Below are positions 692 to 62,151 of a stretch of DNA of 64,000 bases, in pieces. This DNA comes from Haematobia irritans (taxonomy: Eukaryota > Arthropoda > Insecta > Diptera > Muscidae): NCBI RefSeq assembly GCF_050003625.1, contig NC_134401.1, positions 63,581,242 to 63,645,241 on the forward strand, in the 5' to 3' direction. The position numbers were made by a program, and so were the translations under genes. Positions within the stretch are counted from its first letter, which is position 1. The number at the start of each line of letters is the position of its first letter. The notes beneath the pieces are model-generated. The model was not told the DNA's origin. It made no database searches and saw nothing but the letters and a program-made list of their open reading frames with translations.

Positions 692-2074
692 AAGTACATA
701 CGGCCGCAAGTTCGGCCAGGCCGAATCTTATGTACCCACCACCATGGATTGCGTAGAAACTTCTACGAAAGACTGTGATTTAGTCCATACATGGTATATA
801 TTAGACAAAAAAGTTATGTATAGTTAAGTCTACAAATAATTACGAATCGATATGGACTTTTTGTACTTAGAGAGCCAGAATTGAAATATGGGGGTCGCTT
901 ATATGGGGGCTATATACAATTATGAACTTGATATGGACCAACTTTTGTGTGATTGGGGATCGATTTATCTGAGGGCCATATATAAGTATAGACCGATATG
1001 GATCTAGTTAGGCATGGTTGTTAACGACCATATACTAGCACAATGTACCAAATTTCAACTCACTCGGATGAAATTTGCTCCTCCAAGTGGTTCCAAAACC
1101 AAATTTCGGGATCGGTTTATATGGGGCTATGTACGATTGTGGACTGATATGGACCACTTTTGGCATGGTTGTTAAATATCATATACTACCACCACGTACC
1201 AAATTTCAAGCAGATCGGATGAATTTTGCTTCTCCAAAAGGCACCGGAGGTCAAATCTGGGGATCGGTTTATATGGGAGCTATATATAATTATGGACTGA
1301 TAGGAACCAATTCCTGCATGGTTGTTGAATACCCTATACTAACATCACGTACCAAATTTCAACCGAATGGCAAGAATTTTGCTCTTCCAAGGGCTTTGGA
1401 GGTCAAATCTGGGGATCGGTTTATATGGGGCCTATATAATTATGGACCGATATCGACCAATTTTTGCATGGGAGTTTGAGGCCATATATTAACACCACGT
1501 ACCAAATTTCAACTGAATCAGATGAATTTTGGTCTTCCAAGAGGTTCCGGAGGTCAAATCTGGTGATCGGTTTATATGGGGGCTATATATAATTATGAAC
1601 CGATGTGGACCAATTTTTGCATGGTTGTTATAGACCATATACTAACATCACGTACAAAATTTCAGCCGGATCGGATGAAATTTGCTTCTCTTAGCGGCCT
1701 CGCAAGCCAAATCGGGGGATCGGTTTATATGGGGGCTATATATAATTATGGACCGATGTGGACCAATTTTTGGGGTCCGTTTATATGGGGGCTATACGTA
1801 AAAGTGGACCGATATGGCCCATTTGCAATACCATCCGACCTACATCAATAACAACTACTTGTGCCAAGTTTCAAGTCGATAGCTTGTTTCGTTCGGAAGT
1901 TAGCGTGATTTCAACAGACGGACGGACGGACGGACGGACATGCTCAGATCGACTCAGAATTTCACCACGACCCAGAATATATATACTTTATGGGGTCTTA
2001 GAGCAATATTTCGATGTGTTACAAACGGAATGACAAAGTTAATATACCCCCCATCCTATGGTGGTGGGTATAAT
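692..2074 (+). mobile_element. DINE-1/mini-me-like (Helentron) element with ~152-bp tandem array, copy 1
   Basis: The left end has a short GC hairpin (CGGCC...GGCCG) followed by ACCCACCACCATGG. The right end has the inverted counterpart CCTATGGTGGTGGGTATA. Between them lie about five diverged repeats; spacing between successive TTTATATGGG motifs is 152, 152, 151 and 153 bp, then a 56-bp partial unit. Next comes a unique tail with a (GACG)n tract at about 1916-1939. A GTCY/GACR microsatellite core with subterminal inverted repeats is the established signature of the DINE-1/mini-me group. It ends about 90 bp before the Ig exon start codon. Open frames inside it are by-products of the repeat. 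Confidence 0.75.
1916..1939. repeat. (GACG)n microsatellite core of DINE-1-like copy 1
   Basis: A short run of GACG tetranucleotides sits in the 3' unique part. Equivalent runs occur in copies 2 and 4 at about 6214-6235 and 61998-62020, so the tract is an inherited part of the element rather than an independent microsatellite. Confidence 0.8.
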
Positions 2075-2163
2075 AATACACAAAGAATCATAGTAAATGG
2101 ATTAATAATCCTTATTGAGTAATATTGACTGCAATTACTTTAGAGAATTTCCCTTGGAAAAAA

Positions 2164-2563
2164 ATGGCTTTAATTTTAATAGATCCCTTTCGTTTTATTC
2201 TTTTTACAGTGATATACCTGCTCATTGCCATTCATTTGCCCGCATTTTGTCATGGTCAACAACAGAAATTCCGCGTAACCCCTCACGATTTGCAAGTACT
2301 GGAAGGAGCCGAGGCCATGCTACGTTGTGAGGTAACCAATTTAGCTGGGGCAGTTCAATGGACTAAAGATGGTTTTGCATTGGGGTTTTCAGCAGTGATA
2401 CCAGGTTTCCCTCGCTACTCAGTCCTCGGTGATCGTAAGCAGGGCGCATACAATCTGAGAATATCGAATGCCTCGACCAGCGATGATGCCGAATACCAAT
2501 GCCAGGTTGGGCCTGCTCGCCTGAATTCGGCCATACGGGCCAATGCCAAACTCACCGTTATCT
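2164..2563 (+). CDS. sns: Exon of an Sns/Hbs-type cell adhesion protein: signal peptide plus first Ig domain
   Basis: The reading frame codes 133 residues plus one base of the next codon. Residues 1-31 look like a signal peptide, with hydrophobic core at about 11-23. Residues 36-133 form one Ig domain with paired cysteines C55 and C113, core tryptophan W66 in AVQWTKDG, the DDAEYQCQV motif and a possible N-glycosylation site at N102. This matches the first Ig domain of the Drosophila nephrin-like proteins Sticks and stones and Hibris, membrane adhesion receptors of fusion-competent myoblasts and nephrocytes. I favour sns from the wording of the domain, but hbs is not excluded. The ATG at 2164 has a good fly context (AAAAATGG). 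Alternatively a strong acceptor ending at 2209 means the exon starts at 2210, in phase 1, and the signal peptide begins upstream. The exon ends in phase 1 at ATC-T|GTAAGT, usual for Ig exons. No second Ig exon was recognised downstream. Confidence 0.85.
2191..2209 (+). other. Possible splice acceptor inside the predicted signal peptide
   Basis: A pyrimidine-rich run ends in TTTTTACAG. Use of it would give an exon starting at 2210 in phase 1 and would remove the ATG at 2164. The choice between this and the ATG start cannot be settled from sequence alone. Confidence 0.4.
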
Positions 2564-2570
2564 GTAAGTA
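2564..2570 (+). other. Splice donor of the Ig exon
   Basis: GTAAGTA follows the last exon base T2563, a near-perfect donor. It lies where the Ig domain ends (LTVI) and leaves phase 1. Reading past it loses all similarity to Ig proteins. Confidence 0.85.
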
Positions 2571-3816
2571 TAGCCCGAATTTAGTGGATTTTAATTATTT
2601 GATAGTGGCTCATGTAATTGAATTTCCATCAACTCTGCCCCCTGATTCGTGTAGCTTTAGTGCTTCCCAAATTGTGTAGCTGCATTCAGCCATTCAATCC
2701 ATTCTATTTAGACGTACATCGATGATAGAACTTTGCGAATTTAATTCACAAGCTGATGCATTCACACCATTGCAAGCAAATGCAAACACTTTGTTCCCGC
2801 TCAAATAAAGCAGCTTTGTCATTATCGGATGTCTTTATGCTCGCTCGATGAAGCATTCGATCTGAAATGAAATGTAATCAATTTGATTGGATTGGATGCG
2901 TTTATGGCTGCTCTAAACGGTTTGGCACAGGAGAGTGTTGTTGTCGATATAGTTGGCCCAAAAATAGGTCATATCTGTTGATGACGATGACGATGACGAT
3001 GATGCTGATGCAGATGCAGATGTGGATGCTAATGCTTGAAGGGGTGGATGGTGCTGGAGCTTGGCTTGTTGGTGTTAGGGAAGCAGTTTATTTAATTGAA
3101 ATTCTCATGCAGACAATTTGATAAAAATGCTTTACGGAAAATCGCAATTATTGCGAATAAATTTATTGATTGCTTCATATGGTCAGTGGTTGTGCTCTGT
3201 TGGCCACAAGCACTTGTATTACGTTTTTTTTATGACAACCACATAGCTTGGTTTGTCTGCCATCGTGGTCTGCCCCCTCTGTGATTGCCCTCCCTATCGT
3301 TTGAATGTAACTAACGAAACAATTGCAGTTTTTTAATGCTAGTGTGAATCTCTGTTGTTTGTGTATGATTGAATTTTGCCTTTTATGGAAATTCTCTTTA
3401 TACCACTTAGTTTATGAATTTAAATAAAATGCATAAATGTTTAAACTCAAAGTCTTAGTTGTGGCAATCACTTAATTGGAAAATATTTAAAATTCTTCTC
3501 TGTTGTTGTCCAAATGCACGTACAAAATAAACAAATTTCAAACAAAAACATGTTATGCATGAAAAGAACATAGCCATTAGGCATGTAACTGAAAAAGAAT
3601 TTATTTACATTTAAAGATAAATTATTTTTTCCACAGAAATCTTCTTGTGGCGTAGTACTATTTGCACAAAAACTAAAACAAAAAATGCACTTTTTCGTAA
3701 GCAGATGACAGACTATGTGGTTTAAGTAAAAAGCCTTTTAATTTTGTCGATTCAAACAAAAAGCGTTTATTGCGAATGGAGATATATTCTTCCGCAGAAA
3801 ATTTATTGAACTTCTA
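2571..3816 (+). other. Start of the large intron of the Ig-domain gene
   Basis: AT-rich intron-like sequence without further exon-like reading frames. The only distinct feature is a degenerate GATGAC/GATGCA tract at about 2978-3040. The intron probably runs to the end of the window, giving more than 61 kb filled with transposons; this is inferred from not seeing a second Ig exon. Confidence 0.5.
2978..3040. repeat. (GATGAC)n-like microsatellite
   Basis: Imperfect GATGAC hexamers pass into GATGCA/GATGTG hexamers. It produces Met/Asp-rich open frames that should not be read as protein. Confidence 0.8.
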
Positions 3817-4534
3817 CACTGAAAAAAATATTGTCGTGAGGTCAAAGATTTCATGTCTACGAATGGAAATTTTGCTTAGAATAGAAGGCGCATTTGTCTA
3901 ATATAGAGTTTTTTCCTTGTCCAAAAGTCGATAAACTTTTCAATGAAGTCGTTATGTGATTTCACTTAACCCTTTCACTACCGATGTCCACTTAGAAGGA
4001 CATTCGAAAAAGACACCAAATTCTATTTTCCCACTTCGTTTAGATTCATTTCACGATGTTATTTTAAAGTAGAGGCTTTAATCTAAATAAGCTATAATTA
4101 TTTTCCATATTGGTGAGAACTAAAATACATTTTTATAGACTTCTTTAACAAAAAACGAAAAATATGAAAATTTGAGACAATTTTTCTAATGTATGTTTCT
4201 AGTAAATGGACATTTATACAAAAACTATAGCTGATAGTTTTTCGGGTTCTTTTTGAAAGAAAAAATGTTTTGGCTAGAGTCAACTTGACATTAATAATTC
4301 AGAAAAATTCTTTAAATTTAATGAAATTGTCTTTAAATTTGTTGTATTTTTGCATCTTGACTACAAAGCAAAAAATCGTTTAAATAACATATAGGACATG
4401 TTTTTCAACACTTTATTTTAAAGACGTTTTTTACTTGAAACATAGCATAATTTCTACTGGAAGTCGAGTCATAATTTGGAAAATTAAGTTATCGTTCACT
4501 CATTTTTACAGGAATTTAATAGCATATGAAGAAA
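3817..4534 (+). mobile_element. CACTGAAAAAAA-ended MITE, copy 1 (left part, interrupted)
   Basis: It begins CACTGAAAAAAATATTG after a TA. It matches the intact copy at 46817-47448 but is interrupted twice: by a piggyBac-like MITE at 3970 and by a DINE-1-like element at 4535. The remainder (AAAAAGCTGAAAATG...) resumes at about 6368-6407, and its right end is cut off by an inverted copy of the same family. TA flanks and matching ends suggest Tc1/mariner-type mobilisation. Confidence 0.75.
3970..4250 (-). mobile_element. piggyBac-like MITE fragment nested in the CACTGAA MITE
   Basis: It starts TTAA|CCCTTTCACTACCGA, the same end as the complete copy at 53521-54029, in reverse orientation. The far end and its TTAA are lost at about 4250. 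The empty site is visible in the copy at 46817, where the host MITE reads CACTTAAAAATGGG, so the target was a genuine TTAA. Confidence 0.75.
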
Positions 4535-6367
4535 CAAGTATAAACGGCCGTAAGTTCGGCCAGGCCGAATCTTATGTACCCTCCACCATGGATTGCGTAG
4601 AAACTTCTACGAAAGACTGTCATCCACAATCGAATTACTTGGGTTGTGGTATCTTAAATTGTTTTCTAAATTGTGTGTTAGTCCATACATGGTATACATT
4701 AGACAAAAAAAAAGTATGTGTAGGTAAGTTTACAAATAATTACGAATCGATATGGACTTTTGCACGGTACGTAGGGAGCCAGAATTAAAATATGGGGGTC
4801 GCTTATATGGGGGCTATATACAATTATTGATATGGACCAATTTTTGTGTGATTGGGGATCGATTTATCTGAGGGTTACATATAACTGTAGACCGATATGG
4901 ACCTAGTTAGGCATGGTTGTTAACGGCCATATACTAGCACAATGTACCAAATTTCAACTGACTCGGATGAAATTTGCTCCTCCAAAACCAAATGTCGGGA
5001 TCGGTTTATATGGGGGCTATATATGATTATGGACTGATATGGACCAATTTTGGCATGGCTGTTAAATATCATATACTACCACCACGTACAAAATTTCAAC
5101 CAGATCGGATGAATTTTGCTTCTCCAAAAGGCACCGGAGTTCAAATCTGGGGATATGTTTATATGGGCGCTATATATAATTATGGACTGATATGAACCAA
5201 TTCCTGCATGATTGTTGGATACCATATACTAACATCACGTACCAAATTTCAACCGAATCGGATGAATTTTGCTCTTTCAAGGGGCTCCGGAGGTCAAATC
5301 TGGGGATCGGTTTATATGGGGGCTATATATAATTATGGACCGATGTGGACCAATTTTTGCATGGTTGTTAGAGACCATATACTAACACCATGTACCAAAT
5401 TTCAGCCGGATCGGATGAAATTTGCTTCTCTTAGAGGCCTCGCAAGCCAAATCGGGGGATCGGTTTATATGGGGGCTAAATATAATTATGGACCGATATG
5501 GACCAATTTTTGCATGGTTATTAGAGACCATATACTAACACCATGCACCAAATTTCAGCCAGATCGGATGAAATTTGCTTCTCTTAGAGGCCTCGCAAGC
5601 CAAATCGGGGGATCGGTTTATATGGGGGCTATATATAATTATGGACCGATGTGGACCAATTTTTGCATGGTTGTTAGAGACCATATACTAACACCATGTA
5701 CCAAATTTCAGCCGGATCGGATGAAATTCGCTTCTCTTAGAGGCCTCGCAAGCCAAATCGGGGGATCGGTTTATATGGGGGCTATATGTAGTTATGGACC
5801 GATGTGGGCCAATATTTGCATGGTTGTTAGAGACCATATACTTACACCATGTACCAAATTTCAGCCAGATCGGATGAAATTTGCTTCTCTTAGAGGCCCC
5901 GCAAGCCAAATCGGGGGATCGGTTTATATGGGGGCTATATATAATTATGGACCGATGTGGACCAATTTTTGCATGGTTGTTAGAGACCATATACTAACAC
6001 CATGTACCAAATTTCAGCCGGATCGGATGAAATTTGCTTCTCTTAGAGGCCTCGCAAGCCAAATTTGGGGGTCCGTTTATATGGGGGCTATACGTAAAAG
6101 TGGACCGATATGGCCCATTTGCAATACCATCCGACCTACATCAATAACAACTACTTGTGCCAAGTTTCAAGTCGATAGCTTGTTTCGTTCGGAAGTTAGC
6201 GTGATTTCAACAGACGGACGGACGGACGGACGGACATGCTCAGATCGACTCAGAATTTCACCACGACCCAGAATATATATACTTTATGGGGTCTTAGAGC
6301 AATATTTCGATGTGTTACAAACGGAATGACAAAGTTAATATACCCCCCATCCTATGGTGGAGGGTAT
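4535..6367 (+). mobile_element. DINE-1/mini-me-like (Helentron) element, copy 2, most complete
   Basis: Inverted subterminal ends TACCCTCCACCATGG (about 4576) and CCTATGGTGGAGGGTA (about 6351) bound it. The tandem array has an exact period of 153 bp: TTTATAT motifs lie at 5311, 5464, 5617, 5770, 5923 and 6076. The (GACG)n core is at about 6214. It sits inside MITE copy 1 and no obvious target duplication is seen, as expected for Helitron-type insertion. A 373-codon open frame at 5208-6329 exists only because 153 is divisible by three. Confidence 0.8.
5311..6228 (+). repeat. 153-bp tandem array of DINE-1-like copy 2
   Basis: Five full units at constant 153-bp spacing plus a 3' partial unit. 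Each contains a TATATGGGGGCTATA block, a TGGACCGATGTGGACC block and a GGATCGGATGAAATTTGC block. Confidence 0.9.
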
Positions 6368-6407
6368 AAAAAAAGCTGAAAATGTGAAAAATCAAAATCA
6401 AAATTTG

Positions 6408-7064
6408 CACTGAAAAAAAAGCATACTCGGTTCCAAAGATTTTGTCTTTACTTTAAAAATTTTGGTATTGATTCCGAGCCAAAGAATCGGAGAATACAAG
6501 TAAGAATACTTTTAAGACACAATTCACTTTTAAATTTAGGTTTTGCGTACTTGCTTCTAGGAAGCAAATTTTAATTTTTCGCTTTCTCAGCTTGTTTTCT
6601 TCATATGCTATCAAAGTCCTTTAAAAACGAGTTAACGGCAACTTTATTTTCCAAATTAAGACTCGACTTCCAGTAGAAATTATGCTATGTTTGAAGTAAA
6701 AAACTTTTTTAAAATAATGTTTTGAAAAACATGTCCTATATTTGAACGATTTTTTGCTTTGTAGTCAAGATGCAAAAAGACAACAAATTTAAAGACAATT
6801 TCATTAAATTTAAAGAATTTTTCTGAATTATTAAAGTCAAGTTGACCTTAGCCTATAAATTTTTTCTTTCATGTTAAGATACCCATTTTTAAGTCAAATC
6901 ACTTAATTATAAGGACAATACGACTTCATTGAAAAGTTTATCGACTTTTGGACAAGGAAAATAACTTTAATTTTAGAGAAATGCGTCTTCTATGCTAAGC
7001 AAAATTTGTATTCGTATTTTAAAGACATGAAATCTTTGACCTCACGACAATATTTTTTTCAGTG
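6408..7064 (-). mobile_element. CACTGAAAAAAA-ended MITE, copy 2 (complete, inverted)
   Basis: It starts CACTGAAAAAAAAGC and ends TATTTTTTTCAGTG, and is the reverse complement of the 46817-47448 copy. It is inserted into or against the tail of copy 1, so two members lie in opposite orientation around 6408. No coding capacity. Confidence 0.8.
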
Positions 7065-7366
7065 CAATGGTTAGCATGCCTGCCTTGCATACACAAGGTC
7101 GTGGGTTCGATTCCTGCTACGACCGAACACCAAAAAGTTTTTCAGCGGTGGATTATCCCACCTCAGTAATGCTGGTGACATTTCTGAGTGTTTCAAAGCT
7201 TCTCTAAGTGGTTTCACTGCAATGTGGAACGCCGTTCGGACTCGGCTATAAAAAGGAGGTCCCTTGTCATTGAGCTTAACATGGAATCGAGCAGCACTCA
7301 GTGATAAGAGAGAAGTTCACCACTGTGGTGAGCCTGATACATCGGGCTGCCATATAACCTAACCTA
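7065..7366 (+). mobile_element. tRNA-derived SINE, copy 1
   Basis: The head contains a good pol III A box (TGGTTAGCATG, from about 7067) and B box (GGTTCGATTCC, about 7102-7112), with a TTGCATA segment where a tRNA anticodon loop would lie. The body continues GGAACGCCGTTCGGACTCGG and TATAAAAAGG. It ends in GAGCCTGATACATCGGGCTGCC followed by CCTAA repeats. The tail is the same as that of the RNase H LINE in this window. About 25 bp of the shared tail are missing here compared with the 10099 copy. The final CCTAA repeats are split by the next element and resume at 8336-8350. Confidence 0.8.
7100..7113 (+). promoter_or_regulatory. pol III B box of SINE copy 1
   Basis: GGTTCGATTCC fits the GGTTCRANYCC consensus, and the A box TGGTTAGCATG lies upstream at tRNA-like spacing. 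Together they form an internal RNA polymerase III promoter. Confidence 0.75.
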
Positions 7367-8335
7367 CCCAGCAAAAACTCTCATTACCCGGTAATCTTGT
7401 AGGTAAGCCTATTTAAAAATTAATAACCACTTATTAATTGGCATCGCTTCGGATTACATTTACATACGCATCTCCTAGAAGGAAAGTACTTCTCCCCAGG
7501 CATACTTTCGGCCATAAAATAAGTAGTGCATTTAAAGCATATCATCACCTAATATGTAATGACTTATTCGTAGATACACCAAACCTTGCAAAATAGCCAC
7601 TTATTGTCTCAGGCAACCATATCTCGAAAATATTGATTTCTATCGCCGATTACAATAAATCAAAATATGGCGAGTGATGCTGTAATAGAAGAACTACTTG
7701 AATAGAAACGAATATTGTATAAATAAACAAAAAAATCTAATAAATAATCTAAATAATATGCACACTTAAAATAGAAATAAATGTAGGTTGTTTAAGGGAA
7801 TTGGATTCGTGAATTACGTTATAATATATCCAATAGCCAATTCACATAAGGTTCAAAATCTACTAAAAGTGGATTTTAAGTCTCTTTTTTATAAGGCAAA
7901 TGGCATTTTAAATTTAGTTTAAGCGCATTTTGGAAGTGTAATGTGAATGAGGTATAAGAAAGCATTTATTTAAAACATAATATGACAATGTCATTAAACA
8001 CAATTATTATGAAATATTTGTGATAAAAATTTCTTAACGGAACAATTTTCAGAATTACCGTTACATTACATATTCTTTTTGATATTTTATGTAAGTGCTC
8101 GATTATGTGAATAATTATACCTAATGGTACCATCATTTATTCTATTTTATTAATTCGTTAACTACAACTGCCTAAAAATTTGAGAATAACAATTCGAAAA
8201 TTACCGAGAAGTATTTATTTTTGTCATTACAAGTTAGTCATTATAACTCGCCGCAATGTAATGCAACGTGTAATGACAGCTTTACTCCTGGTAATGTCAA
8301 TTGTAATGAGATGTGGTTACCTAGTTTTTGCTGGG
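7367..8335. mobile_element. CCCAGCAAAAA-ended element inserted in the SINE tail
   Basis: It starts CCCAGCAAAAACTCTCATTA and ends TAGTTTTTGCTGGG. Flanks are AACCTAACCTA on the left and TAACCTAACC on the right, so it landed in the CCTAA tail of the SINE. The subterminal zones also pair: ACTCTCATTACC against GTAATGAGATGTGG. It is 969 bp, AT-rich, and has no reading frame. The ends are those of the CCCAGCAAAA family found at 23594, 42027, 46018 and 50972, but the interior differs. Confidence 0.75.
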
Positions 8336-8350
8336 TAACCTAACCTAACG

Positions 8351-10087
8351 TGAAATTGGTTGCAATACACATCAGCTACACTGTAATTGCAATTTTAATA
8401 TATCGCAAAAGAAAGTAAAATTAGATGTATCCTAATTTCAATTTTATAAATTATAGATTTACTCTCGTATTCAAACAAAAAACTTAAATTGAACTTTAAA
8501 CCTACTTTTCCAATATAAATTCCTTTGGTAAGATGCTTACAAATTATTTTGAATATGAACATTAAAGTTTGTTACATCCTCTAAATATTAAATATTTTAA
8601 AGAAGGAGCTTCTTTGGCTCGGAATCAATGCCAAAGTCCTTAAGCAAAAGTATTTGTTTTAAGTGAATAGACATATTTCTACTTTCTTAGATTTTTGTTT
8701 TAACTTTCACTTCTGCATTTGATTCCTCCAGAAATTAAAAGTCCCTATCTTGCTTCAAGAACTTTAACCCTCTCATGGCCAATGTTGCCTATAGGAATAT
8801 TGTGCATATATGCTTCTAAGTCCCGTTATTTTGATTTGCTCGACATGCGATTTTTTTGCATTGTGTAACGAACCAGGATTTTTGAATTTTTTCATTTCAT
8901 GTTTGAGGCAACACTAACATATATAGCGCGTAAAATTTTGTTAAATCCGTGCATTTTATATGCAGTTGTCAAATCTATTAAGACGTTGTTAATTTGAACT
9001 TGTTATTTTTTCTGGCAAAACTATTTCATACGCCTCTATGGATATCTCCACGGTCGCAGTAGATATATGCCATCGATTCTTTCAAAATCTCGTAATAGTT
9101 GTTAATATCGTTCTTCGGGCTAACATTTAATTCCCGAATGTCGGGCGGGACCGAGATACAAATGCACAACCTTACAATTCAAAGCAGATTTTTTCATAAA
9201 ATAACAAAAATAAAATAAATCAATGATGTAACATCATGAAAATAAAGCCTGAAATAAATTATTAGAATTATTATTTTTTACTGTAGTAATAAGCAAGTAA
9301 TATAATGCCTAATAAAAATTCAAACAAAAAGAAAAAAGCATACAGGAAAGAACAAATTCTAAACGTATTATTCCATTCATATCCTGCACTCATATCATTA
9401 AGTAATATTTATCTTGCGGTTTTCTTGGTACAATCTGAACAAGGTAGTTGAATTATTTGAATCCAAGCAGTAGCCGAAGAGACAGAGGCCGGACACTATG
9501 CGTGTACATTTTGGTAATATCATATATTATTAAACAATTTTTTTTTATATCAATACAAATATTTTTCTTTAAATCAAAGTAAAGAATTTATTTCATAATG
9601 ATTACAAGTGCTCAACAAGTTACAATCAACGACAACAAAGTGCAATCCTTGCAAACTACAGGCCATATACTAATCCCGATTAATAAGAACATGAACATTG
9701 TCATTCTTTTTAGTAGCAAAATTAAGATATTCCCCAAGTTCCAATATTCGGAATCGCAAAACGCAAAATTTCCCTTTGGTGATATTTTCTTAATAGTACA
9801 ATGTATAAACTTAAAATTTAGCAACATAATTCTCTCAAATGAGAAGTTCAAATTAAATATAGATTCCGAGATTATTTCGATTCTTTTGTTATAAAAAAAA
9901 AATAAATTCTTGATAATCGATTTGTGATTATACACGCAAAGAAGACAAAAAGTTCGGAAAACGTGTACCGAAATCGTTTTTCTTTTGTTACAAAATTTTT
10001 ATTTTTTCAATAAAAAAAATATTTTTGAACCAACAACACAGTCCGTTTCGTTTTCTGTTCTTTTCTGACTTTAATAAGACACATTTT
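8351..10087. other. AT-rich stretch with no recognised gene
   Basis: Probable intron or decayed repeats. The two facing frames at 9598-9935 have no family resemblance and strong AT bias. At 8766 an AACCCTCTCATGGCC motif resembles a piggyBac-type end, but I found no partner end. Confidence 0.35.
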
Positions 10088-10098
10088 ACAGTATCATA

Positions 10099-10319
10099 TT
10101 TCTGAGGTTCTCAAAACTTCTCTTAGTGGTTTCACTGCAATGTGGAACGCCGTTCGGACTCGGCTATAAAAAGGAAATCCCTTGTCATTGAGCTTAACAT
10201 GGAATCGGGCAGCACTCAGTGATAAGAGAGAAGTTCACCAATGTGGTATCACAATGGACTGAATAGTCTAAGTGAGCCTGATACATCGGTCTGCCACCTA
10301 ACCTAAGCTAACCTACAGT
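10099..10319 (+). mobile_element. tRNA-derived SINE, copy 2 (5'-truncated, with target duplication)
   Basis: It lacks the tRNA head and begins in the body, then carries the GGAACGCCGTTCGGACTCGG block and the complete LINE-like tail (about 10244-10316) ending in CCTAA-type repeats. It is bounded by an 11-bp direct repeat ACAGTATCATA at 10088-10098 and 10320-10330, which shows target-primed insertion of a 5'-truncated copy. Confidence 0.85.
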
Positions 10320-10330
10320 ACAGTATCATA

Positions 10331-10868: not shown

Positions 10869-10978
10869 GCTAAAGGTTAGGTTAAAGTGGCGGCCCGATT
10901 AAGGTACAGGCTCACTTAGACTATTCAGTCCATTGTGATACCACATTAACTAAAAGTACCTATTACATATGGGCACTT
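10869..10978 (-). mobile_element. 3' tail of the RNase H LINE (very short insertion)
   Basis: The reverse complement reads GTGCCCATATGTAATAGGTA...GGTATCACAATGGACTGAATAG...CACTTTAACCTAACC, the same 3' end as the copies at 24321, 28503 and 40740. Only about 110 bp were copied, a typical severe 5' truncation. Confidence 0.8.
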
Positions 10979-10981
10979 CTA

Positions 10982-13674: not shown

Positions 13675-14889
13675 TTTGCTTGGTGTCGATGGCCGTTTTC
13701 GAGTTAAGGAATACAGAGTCCAAGGATTTTATTGCAGGTTGACTGTCTGAGTATATATTAATGCCAACAATTTTTGGAACATTATTTCTCAGCCAATTCG
13801 CCACCTCTCATGTTGCTCATGTTGTTCAGCCTGAAAAACACTACAGCGATTAGGTAATCTTTTCGCTATTCGAAGTTCCAGATCTTTAGAATATACTCCG
13901 AAACCCACTCGTTCATCCAATTTGGAGCCATTAGTGTAGAAATCTATATATCGTTTATTCCCCGGGGGTTGTGTGCACCACGCCTCACTGTTGGGAATTA
14001 GAGTTTCAAACTTTTTGTCGAAAAGTGGTTTCGCCAGAGTGTAACCCACTACGTTAGGCACATCTGGCATTATTTTGAGGACCGAACTGTGGCCGTAACT
14101 TTTTTCCGACCACAGCGATAGCTCGCGCAACCGCACAGCCGTTGTTGCAGCTGACTGTTTGGCCAAAATGTTAAGGCAATAGATGCAGCATGATATTAAG
14201 GGAATTTGTTTCTGTCTTGCTGAATGCACCTGAGATACACAAGCACGCCATACGTTGAACTTTGTCTAAATTTGTCGGCCGGCCACCAGACTACAACACC
14301 ATATAGGATCATAGGTCTAGCCACTGCCGTGTATAGCCAATGCACAATTTGTGGTTTTAGTCCCCAATTTTTTCCTATTGCCTTTTTGCACGAGTACAAA
14401 GCTATCGTTACTTTCCTCGCCCATTCTTCAATATCAAGCTTAAAGTTCAGCTTCCTGTCCGAAATAACGCCAAGGTATTTTGCACACTCACCAAAGGGAA
14501 TTTCAATACCCTCTAAGGAAATGGGCCTAACCGTGGGAGTTTTGCGATCTTTGCAATACATGACTAGTTCTGTCCTTGCAGGATTTACCCCAAGACCATT
14601 ATCATTCGCCCATTTCTCAGTCATCTAGAGGGCTCTCTGTATAATATCTCTGATTGTGGATGGGAATTTTCCTCTGACTGCTAGCGCCACATCATCTGCG
14701 TATGCCACCACTTTTATCCTTTCTTTTTCTAGGGAAACCAGAAGGTTGTTTATAGCAACATTCCAAAGGAGAGGTGATAGAACTTGGGGAGTGCCGCTGT
14801 TCACATACCGTTGTATGTTTGCTTGTCCTAGTGTGGCTGAAATACGTCTCTTCGTTAAAAATTCGTCTAACAGCCTAAGTATACATGGA
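13675..14889 (-). pseudogene. RNase H-bearing LINE, copy A, RT and RNase H part
   Basis: Minus-strand remains of the second open reading frame of a non-LTR retrotransposon. 14900-14625 carries the polymerase core with the YADDVA catalytic motif and the upstream GTPQ motif. 14624-14196 continues into the thumb (AKYLGVISDRKLNF). 14229-13790 carries the start of RNase H, DFYTNGSK, where the first catalytic Asp is Asn. Frames shift several times. Near 13690 the sequence jumps from GGCCATCGAC directly to ACCAAGCAAA, a deletion between two CGAC sites that removes most of RNase H and the zinc knuckle. The 3' end is absent; mariner copy A follows directly. It is the same family as the plus-strand copies at 24321, 28503 and 40740. 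Confidence 0.85.
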
Positions 14890-14898
14890 TCAACATTC

Positions 14899-16608
14899 AT
14901 GTGCGTGAAGATAAATTGTAAATTTAACTAGTCGAGACACAAACCAGGTAGTTTTTGCCTGCGCACCTAATGGGTTAATTACAATTTGGGGAGATAAAAT
15001 ATTTAATGAAATACAGCACTTTCCAACATATTTGCGCAAAATATTTTGGTATTAAACGAAAGATCTTGACAAGTACTATAAATGCAAGTGGTTGTCATGT
15101 TCGAAAGCGTCCCATAAATGTTAGTTTTGCAGCTATATTTTAAAAGTCAGTTTGTCCAACTTGAAATAAAGTTAAACTACGCCCACTGTGCAAAACCTGC
15201 TCTAGATTTTTTGGTATCAAATGAAAGCTCTTGACGAGTACTATAAACGCAAGTGGTTCTCATGTTCGAAAGCATCATAGAAATATCGATTTTTATCAAA
15301 AATATAATTAATATGTCAGAATTTAAAATATAGTGCACGCGGGCCCACTGTGCAATACCTGCTCTAGATTTTTTGGTATCAAATGAAAGCTCTTGATGAG
15401 TACTATAAATCCAAGTGGTTGCTATATTCGAAAGCATCACAGAAATATCGATTTTTATCAAAAAGAAACTTAGTTTGCACGAAGTTACAATATAGGACAC
15501 CCGTGCCCACTGTGCAAAACCTGCTCTAGATTTTTTGGTATCAAATGAAAGCTCTTGACGAGTACTATAAACGCAAGTGGTTCTCATGTTCGAAAGCATC
15601 ATAGAAATATCGATTTTTATCAAATATATAATTAATATGTCAGAATTTAAAATATAGTGCAGGTTTTGCACAGTGGGCACGGGTGTCCTATATTGTAACT
15701 TCGTGCAAACTAAGTTTCTTTTTGATAAAAATCGATATTTCTGTGATGCTTTCGAATATAGCAACCACTTGGATTTATAGTACTCATCAAGAGCTTTCAT
15801 TTGATACCAAAAAATCTAGAGCAGGTATTGCACAGTGGGCCCGCGTGCACTATATTTTAAATTCTGACATATTAATTATATTTTTGATAAAAATCGATAT
15901 TTCTATGATGCTTTCGAACATGAGAACCACTTGCGTTTATAGTACTCGTCAAGAGCTTTCATTTGATACCAAAAAATCTAGAGCAGGTTTTGCACAGTGG
16001 GCACGGGTGTCCTATATTGTAACTTCGTGCAAACTAAGTTTCTTTTTGATAAAAATCGATATTTCTGTGATGCTTTCGAATATAGCAACCACTTGTATTT
16101 ATGGTACTCATCAAGAGCTTTCATTTGATACCAAAAAATCTAGAGCAGGTATTGCACAGTGGGCCCGCGTGCACTATATTTTAAATTCTGACATATTAAT
16201 TATATTTTTGATAAAAATCGATATTTCTATGATGCTTTCGAACATGAGAACCACTTGCGTTTATAGTACTCGTCAAGAGCTTTCATTTGATACCAAAAAA
16301 TCTAGAGCAGGTTTTGCACAGTGGGCGTAGTTTAACTTTATTTCAAGTTGGACAAACTGACTTTTAAAATATAGCTGCAAAACTAACATTTATGGGACGC
16401 TTTCGAACATGACAACCACTTGCATTTATAGTACTTGTCAAGATCTTTCGTTTAATACCAAAATATTTTGCGCAAATATGTTGGAAAGTGCTGAATTTCA
16501 TTAAATATTTTATCTCCCCAAATTGTAATTAACCCATTAGGTGCGCAGGCAAAAACTACCTGGTTTGTGTCTCGACTAGTTAAATTTACAATTTATCTTC
16601 ACGCACAT
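14899..16608. mobile_element. 1710-bp foldback element with 762-bp arms
   Basis: The two arms, 14899-15660 and 15847-16608, are near-perfect reverse complements around a 186-bp loop that is itself one repeat unit. Ends are ATGTGCGTGAAGATAAATTG and its complement. Each arm has a unique outer part (about 280 bp) and an inner tandem array with 162-bp period (CACTGTGCAA motifs at 15184, 15346 and 15508). The 9-bp duplication fits foldback or Mutator-like elements. The 207- and 215-codon frames inside are repeat artefacts, since 162 is divisible by three. No transposase is present. Confidence 0.9.
15184..16330. repeat. 162-bp repeat array, inverted about the centre
   Basis: Units contain GCACAGTGGGC, CATTTGATACCAAAAAATC and GATAAAAATCGATATTTCT blocks. 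Two subtypes alternate: one with AACATGAGAACCACTTGCG, the other with GAATATAGCAACCACTTGG. The alternation gives a dimeric higher-order structure. Confidence 0.85.
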
Positions 16609-16617
16609 TCAACATTC

Positions 16618-17985
16618 AGAGTTGTCAGTCCATTTAATATCGAGCTCGGATGGATATTATTGAACGCCCCTTCGATGTCTAGAAACGCCACGATTATGTA
16701 TTCTTTGACAGATAGTGAGCTTTCAATAAAGCTGACTAGTTCATGTACTGCGGTCTCAGTATACCTGCCCTTCGAGTACGCCCATTTTATTCTATATTTC
16801 GATCAATTTCCTCGATAGGAAACGACCGCTGAGCCCCTGTGGCACCGACAGAACATGGTTCGACCGTCTGATTTCCAGGAAAATATGTGTCCAATAGTAC
16901 CACCAGCGTCTCCTCACTGGACGTTGTCCAATTGCCCTCCGATGTTTTAATGAAACCTTGGGCAGAGTTAGTGGATGCTAGTACCTTCCGTAGTCTGGAA
17001 GCCTCGGACGTATTTTCAATACTGCTGCAGTAATCATTCCAAGAGTTATGTTGAGCCTTTCTCAGTTCTCGCTTGTATTCACTCAGATTCTTCTGAGTCC
17101 CAATCTGGTGGACTTTGCTTTGTTAAAGAGCTTCCTACAGGATTTCCTCATATTACTTAACTCTGTAGACCACCATGATGGTCAAATTTTTCCCCTTGGT
17201 TTCCCTCTAGGGCATGCAGCTTTCAGTGAGATGTTGAAGGCCTTAGTAATCCTCTCCACTGCGTGTTCGATATCTTGCACAGTGCTCATATTTGTCTCTG
17301 GTATTTCCGGTATCATCATTTTAAACGATTCCCTATACCTATTCCTAACAAGTGGCGGAAATGTGGTCTTGGTGGTATGAACATCAAATTTGAAACTGAT
17401 GTAGCGATGATCTGAGAAACTATGTTCACCTAAAACCTGCCCATCAGATATCATTTCATTCAGTTCTTTCGAGGCCAAGTTGACGTCCATATCCTCTTGC
17501 CTGTTTTTAGTGACGAAGGTTGGGGCATCTCCCAACCTTCTACCAAATTAATACGCAAAATAAACTCTAGGAGTGACTCTCCTCTTGTATTAATGTCACT
17601 ATGATGTGCATTTGCATCGCATCCCATAATGAGTTTTGTCTTTGTTTTCAATGGCTCCTCAACTAAGGTGTTAACGCCACATGGAGGCATCTCCCTATCA
17701 TGTCCCATGTAGACCGAAGATACGCAATATTTGCATTTGGCTAATTCTAAATTGGCAACGACAGTGTCAGTATTGCACATTGAAGGAAGCAGAAACAAGT
17801 TGAGCTCGGTTTTAGCAATTATATAGGCTCGATTTACATCATTATCAGTATACTGCCATAGTTTGAACCCCGGAGTACTTAATTCACATATTTTGTTTCA
17901 ATAAACATATGGTTCTTGAATAAGAATTATATCTATGTCCCCTTTCATCAGGAGAACTTTTCAGGCAGCACATGCAGCCTATTGT
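16618..17985 (-). pseudogene. RNase H-bearing LINE, copy A, endonuclease and N-terminal RT part
   Basis: Minus-strand remains upstream of the foldback insertion. 17930-17460 encodes an APE-type endonuclease: IILIQEPYV near the start, then IMGCDANAHH with DINTRGESLLEF. The usual Trp-Gly stretch between HH and DIN is deleted. 17535-17182 gives its end with the SDHRYISFKF motif. 17180-16620 gives the linker and the first RT blocks, with stops and frameshifts, including FLDIEGAFNN. The 5' end is truncated at about 17985. The endonuclease nicks target DNA for target-primed reverse transcription. With RNase H this points to the I/LOA group of LINEs. Confidence 0.8.
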
Positions 17986-24141: not shown

Positions 24142-24320
24142 TTTGTGATCGTAACCACAAGGAAAAATTTCTTTGATATTTTAGTTTAGTGTTGTAATTA
24201 TTTTTGAAATGTCGTGATGTTCCTGTGTCGTTTTTTGACAATTTAAAAATAAAAAAAAAATATAAAAAACATTTTAAGTTTAGAATTTAACTTATAGTAC
24301 GCTACATAGATGTCCATATA

Positions 24321-25049
24321 TCGCCGCAAATCTCTCAATGAGATGGCTGTGCAGCACAATATTCACCTAATATGGGTGCCTGGCCATAGGAACATACCGG
24401 GGAACTGCGAAGCAGATGAGCTAGCAAGGCTAGGAACTACCTTACATATTCCAGGGGAACTAGAATCTGTTGGTATGCCTCTGGCTACCTGCAAGCTCTT
24501 ACTGCGTGAGAAGGCTGTCATGATGGCAAATGTTAGATGGGAGAATTGTAAGGGTTGTAACAACACCAAGCAAATATGGCCCCATTTAAACTTAAACCGC
24601 ACACTAGATATGCTAGTGTTCTCGAGACGCCAGATATCACTCCTGATATCTGCTATAACGGGTCGCTGCCTGATAGGCGATTTTGCAAAAACTATTGGTG
24701 CGAAGTATAATGACTATTGTATGAGCTGTTATGATGCGGAGGAAAAGGAATCAATAAAACACCTCTTGTGTGAGTGTCCTGCATTTTGTGTAAGGCGTAA
24801 GCAAATTTTAGGGGCATATAACTTCAGATTACTGGCTGACCTGGAAAAAGTTAACTTAAGCAGTCTGCTAATGTTTTTGGAACAATCTGGTTGGTTCAAC
24901 AGAAGAAAATAATCGAGAAGGTTCAACGGTTAAAACTAGAAGTGCCCATATGTAATAGGTACTTTTAGTTAGTGTGGTATCACAATGGACTGAATAGTCT
25001 AAGTGAGCCTGAATCTTAATCGGGCTGCCACTTTAACCTAACCTAACCT
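24321..25049 (+). pseudogene. RNase H-bearing LINE, copy D (3' part, uninterrupted frame)
   Basis: A 5'-truncated copy with an open frame to its natural stop at 24912. It starts inside RNase H and keeps the last two catalytic residues in WVPGHRNIPGNCEADELA. It then has the LINE zinc-knuckle pattern YCMSC...ESIKHLLCECP and the C-terminal SGWFNRRK. After the stop comes a 3' UTR with GGTATCACAATGGACTGAAT and a CCTAACCTAACC end. It has the 17-bp segment (TGGCTGACCTGGAAAAA) that copies B and C lack, so it comes from a less damaged lineage. Flanks TGTCCATATAT and TGTTTATATGT may be a mutated target duplication. Confidence 0.85.
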
Positions 25050-28491: not shown

Positions 28492-28502
28492 TAGTGTCAA
28501 TA

Positions 28503-29941
28503 ACGGTAGTTTTGTACTCGTGCAAAAAGGCAATAGGAAAAAAGTGGGGACTAAAACCAAAAATTGTGCATTGGCTATAAACGGCAGTGGTTAGACCTAT
28601 AATGCTATATGGTGTTGTAGTCTGGTGACTGGCACTTCACCAGCCAACAAGTTTAGACAAAGTTCAGCGTATGGCGTGTTTGTGTATCTAAGGCCATTCA
28701 GCAAGACAGGAACAGATTCCCTTAATGTCATGCTGCATCTATTGCCTTTAGACATTTTGGCCAAGCAGTCAGCTGCAACAACGGCTGTGCGGTTGCGCGA
28801 GCTATCGCTGTGGTCGGAAAAAAGTTACGGTCACAGTTCGGTCCTCAAAATAATGCCAGATGTGCCTAACGTAGTGGATTACACTTTGGCGAGTCCACTT
28901 TTCGACAAAAAGTTTGAGACTCTAATCCCCAACAGTGAGGCGCACACATACCCCGGGGAATAAAGAATATATAGATTTCTACACTGATGGCTCCAAATTG
29001 GATGGATAAGTGGGTTTCGGAGTATATTCTAATGATCTGGAACTTCGAATAGCGAAAAGATTACCTAATCACTGTAGTGTTTTTCAGGCTGAAATATTAG
29101 CAATAAGAGAGGTGGCGAATTGGCTGAGAAGTAATGTTCCAAAAAATGTGGGCATTAATATATACTCAGACAGTCAACGTGCAATAAAATCCTTGGACTC
29201 TGTGTTCCTCAACTCGAAAACGGCCATCGACTGCCGCAAATCTCTCAATGAGATGGCTGAGCAGTACAATATTCACCTAATATGGGTGCCTGGCCATAGG
29301 AACATACCGGGGAACTGCGAAGCGGATGAGTTGGCAAGGCTAGGGACTACCTTACATATTCCAGGGGAACTAGAATTTGTTGGTATGCCCCTAGCTACCT
29401 GCAAGCTCATGCTACGTGAGAAGGCTGTTATGATGGCAAATGTTCGATGGGAGAATTGCAAGGGTTGTAACGACACCAAGCAAATATGGCCCCATTTCAA
29501 CTTAAACCGCACACTAGATATGCTAGTGTTCTCGAAACGCCAGATATCACTCCTGATATCTGCTATAACGGGTCGCTGCCTGATAGGCGATTTTGCAAAA
29601 ACTATTGGTGCGAAGTATAATGACTATTGTATGAGCTGTCATGATGCGGAGGAAAAAGAATCAATTAAACACCTCTTGTGTGAGTGTCCTGCATTTTGTG
29701 TAAAGCGCAAGCAACTTTTAGGAGCATATAGCTTCAGATTACGTTAACTTAAGCAGCCTGCTAATGTTTTTGGAACAATCTGGTTGGTTCAACAAAGAAA
29801 AATAATCAAGAAGGTTCAGCGGTTAAAACTAGAAGTGTCCATATGTAATAGGTACTTTTAGTTAATGTGGTATCACAATGGACTGAATAGTCTAAGTGAG
29901 CCTGAATATTAATCGTGCTGCCACTTTAACCTAACCTAACC
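28503..29941 (+). pseudogene. RNase H-bearing LINE, copy B (5'-truncated, target duplication)
   Basis: Bounded by the 11-bp duplication TAGTGTCAATA at 28492-28502 and 29942-29952. It begins in the RT thumb (GTACTCGTGCAAAAAGGC). The RT C-terminus is frameshifted near 28630 and 28940. RNase H is complete: DFYTDGSK, FQAEILAI, IYSDSQRAIK and WVPGHRNIPGNCEADE carry the expected D, E, D, H and D. A TAA stop splits SKLDG from VGFGVYS at 29008. Near 29744 a 17-bp deletion changes the frame and ends the protein after FRLR. Copy C has both lesions at the same places. The 3' tail ends in CCTAA repeats. Confidence 0.9.
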
Positions 29942-29952
29942 TAGTGTCAATA

Positions 29953-40727: not shown

Positions 40728-40739
40728 TAGCGTGGATCA

Positions 40740-41908
40740 ACAACGGCTGTGCGGTTGCGCGAACTATCGCTGTGGTCGGAAAAAGGTTACGGTCACAGTT
40801 CTGTCCTCAAAATAATGCCAGATGTGCCTAACGTAGTGGATTACACTTTGGCGAGTCCACTTTTCGACAAAAAGTTTGAGACTCTAATCCCCAACAGTGA
40901 GGCGTGGTGCACACAGACCCCGGGGAATAAAGAATATATAGATTTCTACACTGATGGCTCCAAATTGGATGGATAAGTGGGTTTCGGAGTATATTCTAAT
41001 GATCTGGAACTTCGAATAGCGAAAAGATTACCTAATCACTGTAGTGTTTTTCAGGCTGAAATATTAGCAATAAGAGAGGTGGCGAATTGGCTGAGAAGTA
41101 ATGTTCCAAAAAATGTGGGCATTAATATATACTCAGACAGTCAACGTGCAATAAAATCCTTGGACTCTGTGTTCCTCAACTCGAAAACGGCCATCGACTG
41201 CCGCAAATCTCTCAATGAGATGGCTGAGCAGTACAATATTCACCTAATATGGGTGCCTGGCCATAGGAACATACCGGGGAACTGCGAAGCGGATGAATTG
41301 GCAAGGCTAGGGACTACCTTACATATTCCAGGGGAACTAGAATTAGTTGGTATGCCCCTAGCTACCTGCAAGCTCATGCTGCGTGAGAAGGTTGTTATGA
41401 TGGCAAATGTTCGATGGGAGAATTGCAAGGGTTGTAACGACACCAAGCAAATATGGCCCCATTTAAACTTAAACCGCACACTAGATATGCTAGTGTTCTC
41501 GAGACGTCAGATATCACTCCTGATATCTGCTATAACGGGTCGCTGCCTGATAGGCAATTTTGCAAAAACTATTGGCGCGAAGTATAATGACTATTGTATG
41601 AGCTGTCATGATGCGGAGGAAAAAGAATCAATTAAACACCTCTTGTGTGAGTGTCCTGCATTTTGTGTAAAGCGCAAGCAACTTTTAGGAGCATATAGCT
41701 TCAGATTACGTTAACTTAAGCAGCCTGCTAATGTTTTTGGAACAATCTGGTTGGTTCAACAAAGAAAAATAATCAAGAAGGTTCAGCGGTTAAAACTAGA
41801 AGTGCCCATATGTAATAGGTACTTTTAGTTAATGTGGTATCACAATGGACTGAATAGTCTAAGTGAGCCTGAATCTTAATCGGGCTGCCACTTTAACCTA
41901 ACCTAACC
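40740..41908 (+). pseudogene. RNase H-bearing LINE, copy C (target duplication)
   Basis: Bounded by the 12-bp duplication TAGCGTGGATCA at 40728-40739 and 41909-41920. It begins in the linker before RNase H (AVRLRELSLWSEKGYGHSSV) and carries the whole RNase H with all five acidic/histidine residues (DFYTDGSK, FQAEILAI, IYSDSQR, GHRN, CEADE). It has the zinc knuckle CMSCHDAEEK...HLLCECP. One TAA at 40974 interrupts the frame after SKLDG, and a 17-bp deletion near 41711 ends it after FRLR; both are shared with copy B. The sequence is otherwise almost the same as copy B, so the two are recent sisters. The tail ends CACTTTAACCTAACCTAACC. Confidence 0.9.
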
Positions 41909-42026
41909 TAGCGTGGATCATCAAAGAGCAAAAATGTGTTTTTTAAGTTTAAGGCCTAAGTTGATTTTTCAAAAAATCTGAAAAATAATTTTGGACTATA
42001 TACCACAGTTGATTGTGCCCTTACTA

Positions 42027-60340: not shown

Positions 60341-62151
60341 TTGATTATGAACCGATATGGACCAATTTTTGTGTGATTGAAACAATTTTGGTATGGTTGT
60401 TAACGACCATATACTAATTTGAACCGGATCGGATGAGTTTTGCTCCTCCATGAGGCTCCGGAGGTCAAATCTGGAGAACGTTTTATATGGGGGCTATATA
60501 TAATTATGGACCGATATGCACCAATTTTTGCACGGTTGCTAGAGACCATATACCAATACCATGTACCAAATTTCAGCCGGATCGGATGAAATTTGCTTCT
60601 CTTAGAGGCTCCGCAACCTAAATCTGGGGATCGGTTTATATGGGGGCTATATATAATTATGGACCGATGTGGGCCAATTTTTGCATGATTGTTAGAGATC
60701 ATATACCAACACCATGTACCAAATTTCAGCCGCATTGGATTAAATATGCTTCTCTTAGAGGCTCCACAAGCCAAATCTAGGGATCGGTTTATATGGGGGC
60801 TATATATAATTAAGGACCGATATGGACCAATTTTTGCATGGTTGTTAGAGATCATATACCAACACCATGTACCAAATTTCAGCCGGATCGGATGAAATAT
60901 GCTTCTCTTAGAGGCTCCACAAACCAAATCTGGGGATCGGTTTATATGGGGGCTATATATAATTATGGACCGATGTGGACCAATTTTTGCATGGTTGTTA
61001 GTGACCATATACCAATACCATGTACCAAATTTCAGCTGGATCGGATGCAATTTGCTTCTCTTTGAGGCTTCGCAAGCCAAATCTGGAGATCGGTTTATAT
61101 GGGGGCTATATATAATTATGGACCGATGTGGACCAATTTTTGCATGATTGTTAGAGACCATATACTAACACCATGTACCAAATTTCAGCCGGATCGGAAT
61201 GAAATATGCTTCTCTTAGAGGCTCTACAAGCCAAATCTGGGGATCGGTTTATATGGGGGCTATATATAATTAAGGACCGATATGGACCAATTTTTGCATG
61301 GTTGTTAGAGACCATATACCAACACCATGTACCAAATTTCAGCCGGATCGGATGAAATATGCTTCTCTTAGAGGCTCCACAAACTAAATCTGGGGATCGG
61401 TTTATATGGGGGCTATATATAATTATGGACCGATGTGGACCAATTTTTGCATGGTTGTTAGATACCATATACCAACATCATGTACCAAATTTCAGCCGCA
61501 TTGGATTAAATATGCTTCTCTTAGAGGCTCCACAAGCCAAATCTAGGGATCGGTTTATATGGGGGCTATATATAATTAAGGACCGATATGGACCAATTTT
61601 TGCATGGTTGTTAGAGATCATATACCAACACCATGTACCAAATTTCAGCCGGATCGGATGAAATATGCTTCTCTTAGAGGCTCCACAAACCAAATCTGGG
61701 GATCGGTTTATATGGGGGCTATATATAATTATGGACCGATGTGGACCAATTTTTGCATGGTTGTTAGTGACCATATACCAATACCATGTACCAAATTTCA
61801 GCTGGATCGGATGCAATTTGCTTCTCTTTGAGGCTTCGCAAGCCAAATCTGAGGGTCCCTTTATATGGGGGCTATACGTAAAAGTGGACCGATATGGCCC
61901 ATTTTCAATACCATCCGACCTACATCGATAACAAATACTTGTGCCAAGTTTCAAGTCGATAGCTTGTTTCGTTCGGAAGTTAGCGTGATTTCAACAGACG
62001 GACGGACGGACGGACGGACATGCTTAGATCGACTCAGAATTTCACCACGACCCAGAATATATATACTTTATGGGGTCTTAGAGCAATATTTCGATATGTT
62101 ACAAACGGAATGACAAAGTTAATATACCCCCATCCTATGATGGAGGGTATA
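60341..62151 (+). mobile_element. DINE-1/mini-me-like element, copy 4 (large array, 5'-truncated)
   Basis: The 5' hairpin part is missing; it starts in the tandem region. TTTATA motifs lie at 60635, 60788, 60941, 61094, 61248, 61401, 61554, 61707 and 61860, that is 153 bp apart with a single 154. The 3' unique part, (GACG)n and CCTATGATGGAGGGTATA end are present. The 253-codon minus-strand frame and other frames here are repeat artefacts. Confidence 0.85.
60712..61846. repeat. 766-bp higher-order duplication inside the 153-bp array
   Basis: The segment at about 60712-61080 recurs at 61478-61846. The offset is 766 bp, equal to five units plus the one-base insertion at about 61199. The frames at 60838 and 61604 translate identically over 75 codons. 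Confidence 0.85.

Follow-up and report, generated by a model that had tools for sequence, protein, structure and literature searches.

SINEs that share their 3′ end with a LINE are already known. One survey describes 58 of them, with CR1 and RTE partners predominating, and a row under Protostomes in its Table 1 contains the Gecko SINE of Aedes aegypti together with an I-clade LINE (I-74_AAe, MosquI) (PMC3747384). Other insect pairs have been described, including HaSE1 of Helicoverpa armigera, a tRNA-derived SINE whose last 43 bp match the LINE HaRTE1.1 (PMC3272025), and PxSE5 of Plutella, which pairs with PxLINE1 (PMC8010984). For zebrafish L2 LINEs, the binding of the stem-loop tail by ORF2 is described as demonstrated (PMC4176376), and UnaL2 ends in short repeats that are likely involved in template slippage (PMC3747384).

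We analysed a stretch of 64,000 nucleotides (hereafter, the window) that contains copies of both a SINE and a LINE ending in the same tail and in CCTAA repeats. The endonuclease of this LINE is similar to that of TRAS1 (1wdu, E = 5e-20) which, as SART1, is a silkworm LINE of telomere repeats; however, the insertions examined here lie in diverse flanks instead of telomere repeats, and the LINE possesses an RNase H. Gecko, a dipteran SINE with a tRNA promoter and a LINE-shared tail, resembles the present SINE, and the title cited for it mentions 3′ tandem repeats and slippage. At the level of its published description, it differs from the present pair in that here the endonuclease is closest to TRAS1, ORF1 matches DUF4780 and the repeat is CCTAA. 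HaSE1 is likewise an insect tRNA-derived SINE with a partner LINE ending in short repeats, although that partner is described as RTE-like with TGA repeats, whereas here the LINE bears an RNase H and ends in CCTAA (PMC3272025). The zebrafish L2 and UnaL2 elements, as described, are comparable in the stringent recognition of a folded 3′ tail, the fold being a predicted one in our case; L2 is a vertebrate clade with one stem-loop, whereas here a three-way junction is predicted and its binding is putative. Among the literature matches listed, which covered sources other than subscription journals, Repbase and SINEBase, no title or abstract opening dealt with this pair or with a LOA partner for any SINE. 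We conclude that the interest of this case lies in its copy number, likely host group and partner type.

The SINE family in the window and in the genome

The consensus of the SINE has 331 bp up to CCAC, after which CCTAA repeats follow, and starts with a tRNA-like head. Its features in the window are:

7062–7366, plus strand: SINE copy 1, with tRNA-like head, body, tail lacking 26 nt and CCTAA repeats (match to the SINE consensus)
10098–10316, plus strand: SINE copy 2, 5′-truncated, with body, complete LINE-type tail and CCTAA repeats (96.5% to consensus positions 132–331)
10240–10297, plus strand: shared 3′ tail of SINE copy 2, corresponding to positions 6753–6813 of the LINE copy at locus L089
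10088–10098, plus strand: target duplication ACAGTATCATA, 5′ copy, its last base overlapping the start of the SINE match
10320–10330, plus strand: target duplication ACAGTATCATA, 3′ copy

Copy 1 is 98.5% identical to the consensus over positions 14–281 and matches it at 25 of 25 positions over 306–330, whereas copy 2 begins at consensus position 132. The original prediction spoke of the shared tail in two SINE copies, which are in fact not equal: copy 2 has the whole tail, and copy 1, which lacks 26 nt of it, is the only one of the 67 SINE bodies that we collected to have just the second tail half. The 11-bp target duplication predicted for one SINE does exist: ACAGTATCATA flanks copy 2, with a few extra bases between the last CCTA of the SINE and the 3′ repeat. 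A 969-bp element with CCCAGCAAAAACT inverted ends (7367–8335) is inserted in the CCTAA tail of copy 1, so that the 3′ flank of this SINE lies beyond 8335.

We searched the 1.17-Gb assembly that contains the window (five large chromosomes) with a pattern that runs from the SINE body into the first part of the tail. Allowing up to 3 mismatches, we obtained 42,576 matches to this junction, counting both strands, and 0 to its reversed control. A query devoid of the tail (window 7050–7300) retrieved 30 loci, 27 of them with both tail halves; the exceptions were the window's own copy, with one half, a copy that breaks off inside the tail (L015) and one without any tail (L027). Considering all the loci collected, both halves were present in 62 of the 67 SINE bodies. 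Copies obtained by similarity queries are the best-scoring ones and, hence, biased towards young or query-like elements. We also sampled 20 SINEs by position along one chromosome, chosen by an exact junction match that included only the start of the tail: all 20 ran on past that start into a short-loop tail, and their identity to the consensus ranged from 80.1 to 100% (median 97.3%). A SINE consensus without the tail, named in the original prediction as an outcome that would contradict it, is incompatible with these results. The same applies to the idea that a LINE fragment was fused by chance to a few SINE copies: the junction count and its empty control refute it, as does the continuation of all position-sampled copies into the rest of the tail, and with nothing found in its favour we give it practically no credit.

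The tRNA-like head of one copy (L012) scored 25.6 bits (E = 0.004) against the Rfam tRNA model, under the gathering score of 29, and the SINE contains the motif GGTTCGATTCC, which we take to be B-box-like according to the box consensus. This weak tRNA match suggests that the SINE is tRNA-headed and that RNA polymerase III presumably transcribes it. As expected for a SINE, the element is short, dispersed and present in many copies, part of them with target duplications. Exact searches for its core or tail motif in prokaryotic genome contigs and viral contigs yielded 0 matches.

The LINE family and the common 3′ tail

We compared the LINE copies of the window with a near-full-length element of ~5.0 kb (locus L089, about 1818 to 6834) in which both reading frames are open:

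24314–25049, plus strand: 5′-truncated LINE with RNase H region and 3′ tail (94% to L089 6096–6816; RNase H match)
28502–29943, plus strand: 5′-truncated LINE (95.3% to L089 5371–6816), with TAGTGTCAATA at 28492–28502 and 29942–29952
40738–41910, plus strand: 5′-truncated LINE (96.9% to L089 5646–6816), with TAGCGTGGATCA at 40728–40739 and 41909–41920
10874–10981, minus strand: short 5′-truncated LINE tail (96.9% to L089 6719–6816 at 10981–10884)
13686–17980, minus strand: LINE fragments without 3′ end (matches to L089 3147–6102), split by an inverted repeat at 14899–16608

The arms of this large inverted repeat are 94% identical. The window also contains three tandem arrays (954–1772, 4853–6120 and 60344–61905) with units of ~153 bp that match each other.

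The L089 element is flanked by CTAACGGTTCT at both ends. Its ORF1 (from 1921) matches the Pfam domain DUF4780, and its ORF2 (1195 aa, with the first methionine ahead of the endonuclease at 3107) matches the Pfam domains Exo_endo_phos_2, RVT_1 and RNase_H, the endonuclease being of the apurinic type. Compared with solved structures, the endonuclease part was most similar to TRAS1, followed by R1 (R1Bm), and the reverse transcriptase part had its best match in human LINE-1 ORF2. The R1/LOA group combines an R1/TRAS1-like endonuclease with reverse transcriptase and RNase H, the latter being found in other clades too. The LINE shows this combination and, judging from its domain order and endonuclease similarity, looks R1/LOA-like, these traits not being specific enough to prove membership. 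For residues 400–900 of ORF2, the named relatives among the 120 matches listed were from the flies Calliphora vicina (51%), Episyrphus (50%), Musca domestica (49%), Bactrocera tryoni (48%) and Drosophila grimshawi (54% over 78%), but also from the moth Eumeta japonica (48%) and the ant Lasius niger (48%); because of these last two, a higher-fly host can be no more than inferred.

A LINE 3′UTR pattern located directly upstream of the tail had 8,856 matches in the genome, and 0 for the control. Some loci contained rearranged copies. At L071 (1032–1811), an internally deleted LINE consists of L089 1812–2196 fused to 6419–6816, with CTAGTCTTC on either side, a small derivative that retains both LINE ends. 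The LINE 3′ end is repeated with a spacing of 177 bp at L092, and LINE copies are interrupted by SINE copies at L035 and L043.

The tail of SINE copy 2 matched the LINE 3′ ends at 41831–41910 (88.8% of 80, E = 3e-23), 29864–29943 (87.5%, E = 3e-22) and 24973–25049 (88.3%, E = 1e-21), in agreement with the original prediction, which had described these three ends as matching the SINE tail down to CCTAA. A fourth LINE tail, absent from it, lies on the minus strand at 10947–10874 (E = 2e-18). CCTAA repeats come after the tails of SINE copy 2 and the LINEs alike, such that the 3′ end, terminal repeats included, is common to a SINE and a LINE of one genome, as in stringent-type pairs. Repeats aside, the shared stretch comprises 58 nt in SINE copy 2 and 61 nt in the LINE. 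In nearly every SINE copy aligned, the LINE homology starts at L089 6753 or 6755 and extends to the repeats; therefore, only the end of the LINE 3′UTR is shared, and the SINE has about half of its 122 nt. From 5′ to 3′, the consensus tails of both families have 40 identical nt, a loop that differs (TAC in the SINE and ATCTTA in the LINE, with AATTTA and AACTTA also in LINE copies), 13 identical nt, and a further difference just before CCTAA. A tail-start pattern had 34,313 genome matches at up to 2 mismatches (control 0), a count that mixes SINEs and LINEs because two mismatches admit exact SINE copies. We also compared 30 LINE copies retrieved with a tail-containing query: variation per column ranged from 0.008 to 0.018 in their last four 20-nt bins and was higher in 15 of the 19 bins upstream.

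Junction matches outnumber LINE 3′UTR matches by ~5:1, as might be expected if the LINE had acquired its 3′ end from the SINE. Nevertheless, this reversed direction seems very improbable: the stretch sits in the LINE 3′ tail, the region where ORF2 of other LINEs is described to bind (PMC4176376), it occurs in both LINE subfamilies, each with its own loop variants, and for published pairs the direction described is LINE to SINE (PMC3747384).

The loop raises a more serious alternative, namely that the true partner is a different, related LINE subfamily having the short loop of the SINE, with the LINEs of the window as its cousins. In fact, all 78 tails with the LINE 3′UTR upstream had the long loop, and 63 of the 66 counted as SINE had the short one. 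The three exceptions were L034 (a variant), L081 (an odd copy) and L134, which reads by eye as a LINE although it was entered as a SINE in this count and in that of the base after CTA described below. None of the LINE loops examined matched that of the SINE. However, no third family appeared among 60 loci with an exact tail start in which ATGTGG or CTGTGG is not preceded by CC (drawn from at least ~100 such starts among the matches listed): the first 20, inspected by eye, read as 16 LINE tails and 4 SINE or SINE-tail copies (L102, L104, L106 and L109), and the next 40 read as LINEs in all cases but L123. Moreover, the changes in the loop and the junction may simply have arisen in the SINE. We consider this alternative rather unlikely, and favour the LINE family of the window as the partner.

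The minus-strand locus L081 contains a full SINE with a LINE-type loop in its tail, followed by a partial duplication and with a LINE copy near it. Because of this close LINE and the partly duplicated region, gene conversion is as likely as template switching, and we left this locus out of the evidence.

RNA folding predicted the same three-way junction for the SINE and the two LINE subfamilies (approximately −22 kcal/mol, z from −2.9 to −3.2), whereas the tail of SINE copy 1, with its 26-nt loss, folds into a single hairpin. Covariation gave this predicted fold no support: we detected 0 compensatory changes in 35 LINE and 58 SINE tails, in which 20 and 26 changed pair cells, respectively, were broken. 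Changes per column were more frequent at unpaired than at paired positions in LINE tails (1.07 vs 0.61), with the opposite trend in SINE tails (0.33 vs 0.86).

Insertion sites and putative mobilisation

Of 58 SINEs, 25 carried exact target duplications of at least 8 bp, against a mean of 0.33 and a maximum of 3 under shuffled pairing; for LINEs, they were present in 9 of 26, against a mean of 0.08 and a maximum of 2. The majority of copies, 33 SINEs and 17 LINEs, had none. Copies with identical flanks had been removed from this set and the L089 row added, its 5′ end being read by eye, and at least one of the LINE rows (L035) is a false chain. A mismatch-tolerant scan, superseded by the exact one, gave 26 of 58 SINEs. 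Among the position-sampled SINEs, after dropping L157, 9 of 19 had duplications (shuffled mean 0.27, most 3).

The duplications overlapped the CCTAA run by a mean of 1.64 nt in SINEs and 2.56 nt in LINEs (nulls of 0.39 and 0.40), and the overlap reached 2 nt or more in 15 of the 25 SINEs and 8 of the 9 LINEs. Where there was overlap, a G came next at 8 of 17 SINE sites and 8 of 9 LINE sites. The TA at the end of the runs is partly due to construction, since runs follow the CCTAA phase. We interpret the overlap as the probable trace of pairing between the primer end and the repeat that terminates the RNA. Two insertions that consist of the tail alone, L102 and L107, have flanking repeats recognized by eye and fit reverse transcription that would have started in the tail and yielded 5′-truncated copies.

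The comparison of target duplications and site preference proposed with the original prediction had a mixed outcome. The exact duplications have the same median length, 11 bp, in SINEs and LINEs, but the base following a run that ends in CTA differs between them: 15 of 30 SINEs have a T there, compared with 4 of 30 LINEs (p ≈ 0.005; 0.008 after adding six later position-sampled SINEs and 0.013 without L081). Although the SINE samples are biased towards young copies, and this base was G five times in those six SINEs, the difference still stands. Together with the uniformly long loop of LINE-type tails, it makes a cousin LINE the main rival to the LINE family of the window as partner.

The mobilisation of the SINE by the LINE of the window would most likely proceed as follows. 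The LINE ORF2 protein would bind the folded tail of the SINE RNA as its own and nick the target; the exposed primer would then anneal to the terminal CCUAA repeat of the RNA, and the SINE would be copied by target-primed reverse transcription. Slippage on the repeat would produce the variable CCTAA numbers. Because both elements end in the same tail and CCTAA repeats, the SINE most likely borrows the LINE enzyme. The original prediction had already pointed to the borrowing of a partner LINE's reverse transcriptase, and the genome-wide tail, the predicted fold, the repeat and the duplication length all support it. From these sequence data we infer transcription, protein binding and mobilisation, as well as the role of this LINE family rather than a close relative as partner. 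Altogether, the two families very probably constitute a stringent-type pair in which a tRNA-headed SINE with a LINE tail is mobilised by the LINE ORF2.

Telomere-like repeats and host group

CCTAA is the insect telomere repeat. The sequence (CCTAA)12 had 152 overlapping matches in the genome; those listed, at least ~100, were located on contigs C1–C3 in short arrays megabases away from the contig ends. We accordingly rejected the interpretation of CCTAA as chromosome-end telomere arrays, none of which occurred at contig ends among the matches listed.

Published descriptions have Drosophila without SINEs and the blow fly Phormia regina with next to none (39 insertions; PMC5084420). In Philornis downsi none were reportedly detected, although some may have been masked there as unclassified (PMC9210292), and an arthropod survey gives them <1% of the TE content in most dipterans (PMC6327564).

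A wider joint reading of our results is possible, although we propose it tentatively. The (CCUAA)n RNA end would act as a repeat template to which a TA(G)-type primer pairs at the nick, much as telomerase or a telomere LINE would begin. In this way, the SINE and its LINE, with a TRAS/R1-like endonuclease, would have spread short telomere-like CCTAA stretches by the tens of thousands in a genome with no chromosome-end CCTAA array among the matches listed. No earlier pair would have had a partner of the R1/LOA group, and the SINE would be the first abundant one in a higher fly. In any case, the CCTAA tails caution against taking dispersed telomere-like repeats as necessarily telomeric. If the host is a higher fly, as we infer, the ~40,000 junction matches and the LINE copy with open reading frames would make the rise of this SINE directly testable and, both partners being available, would open tail swaps, loop changes and priming to assay.
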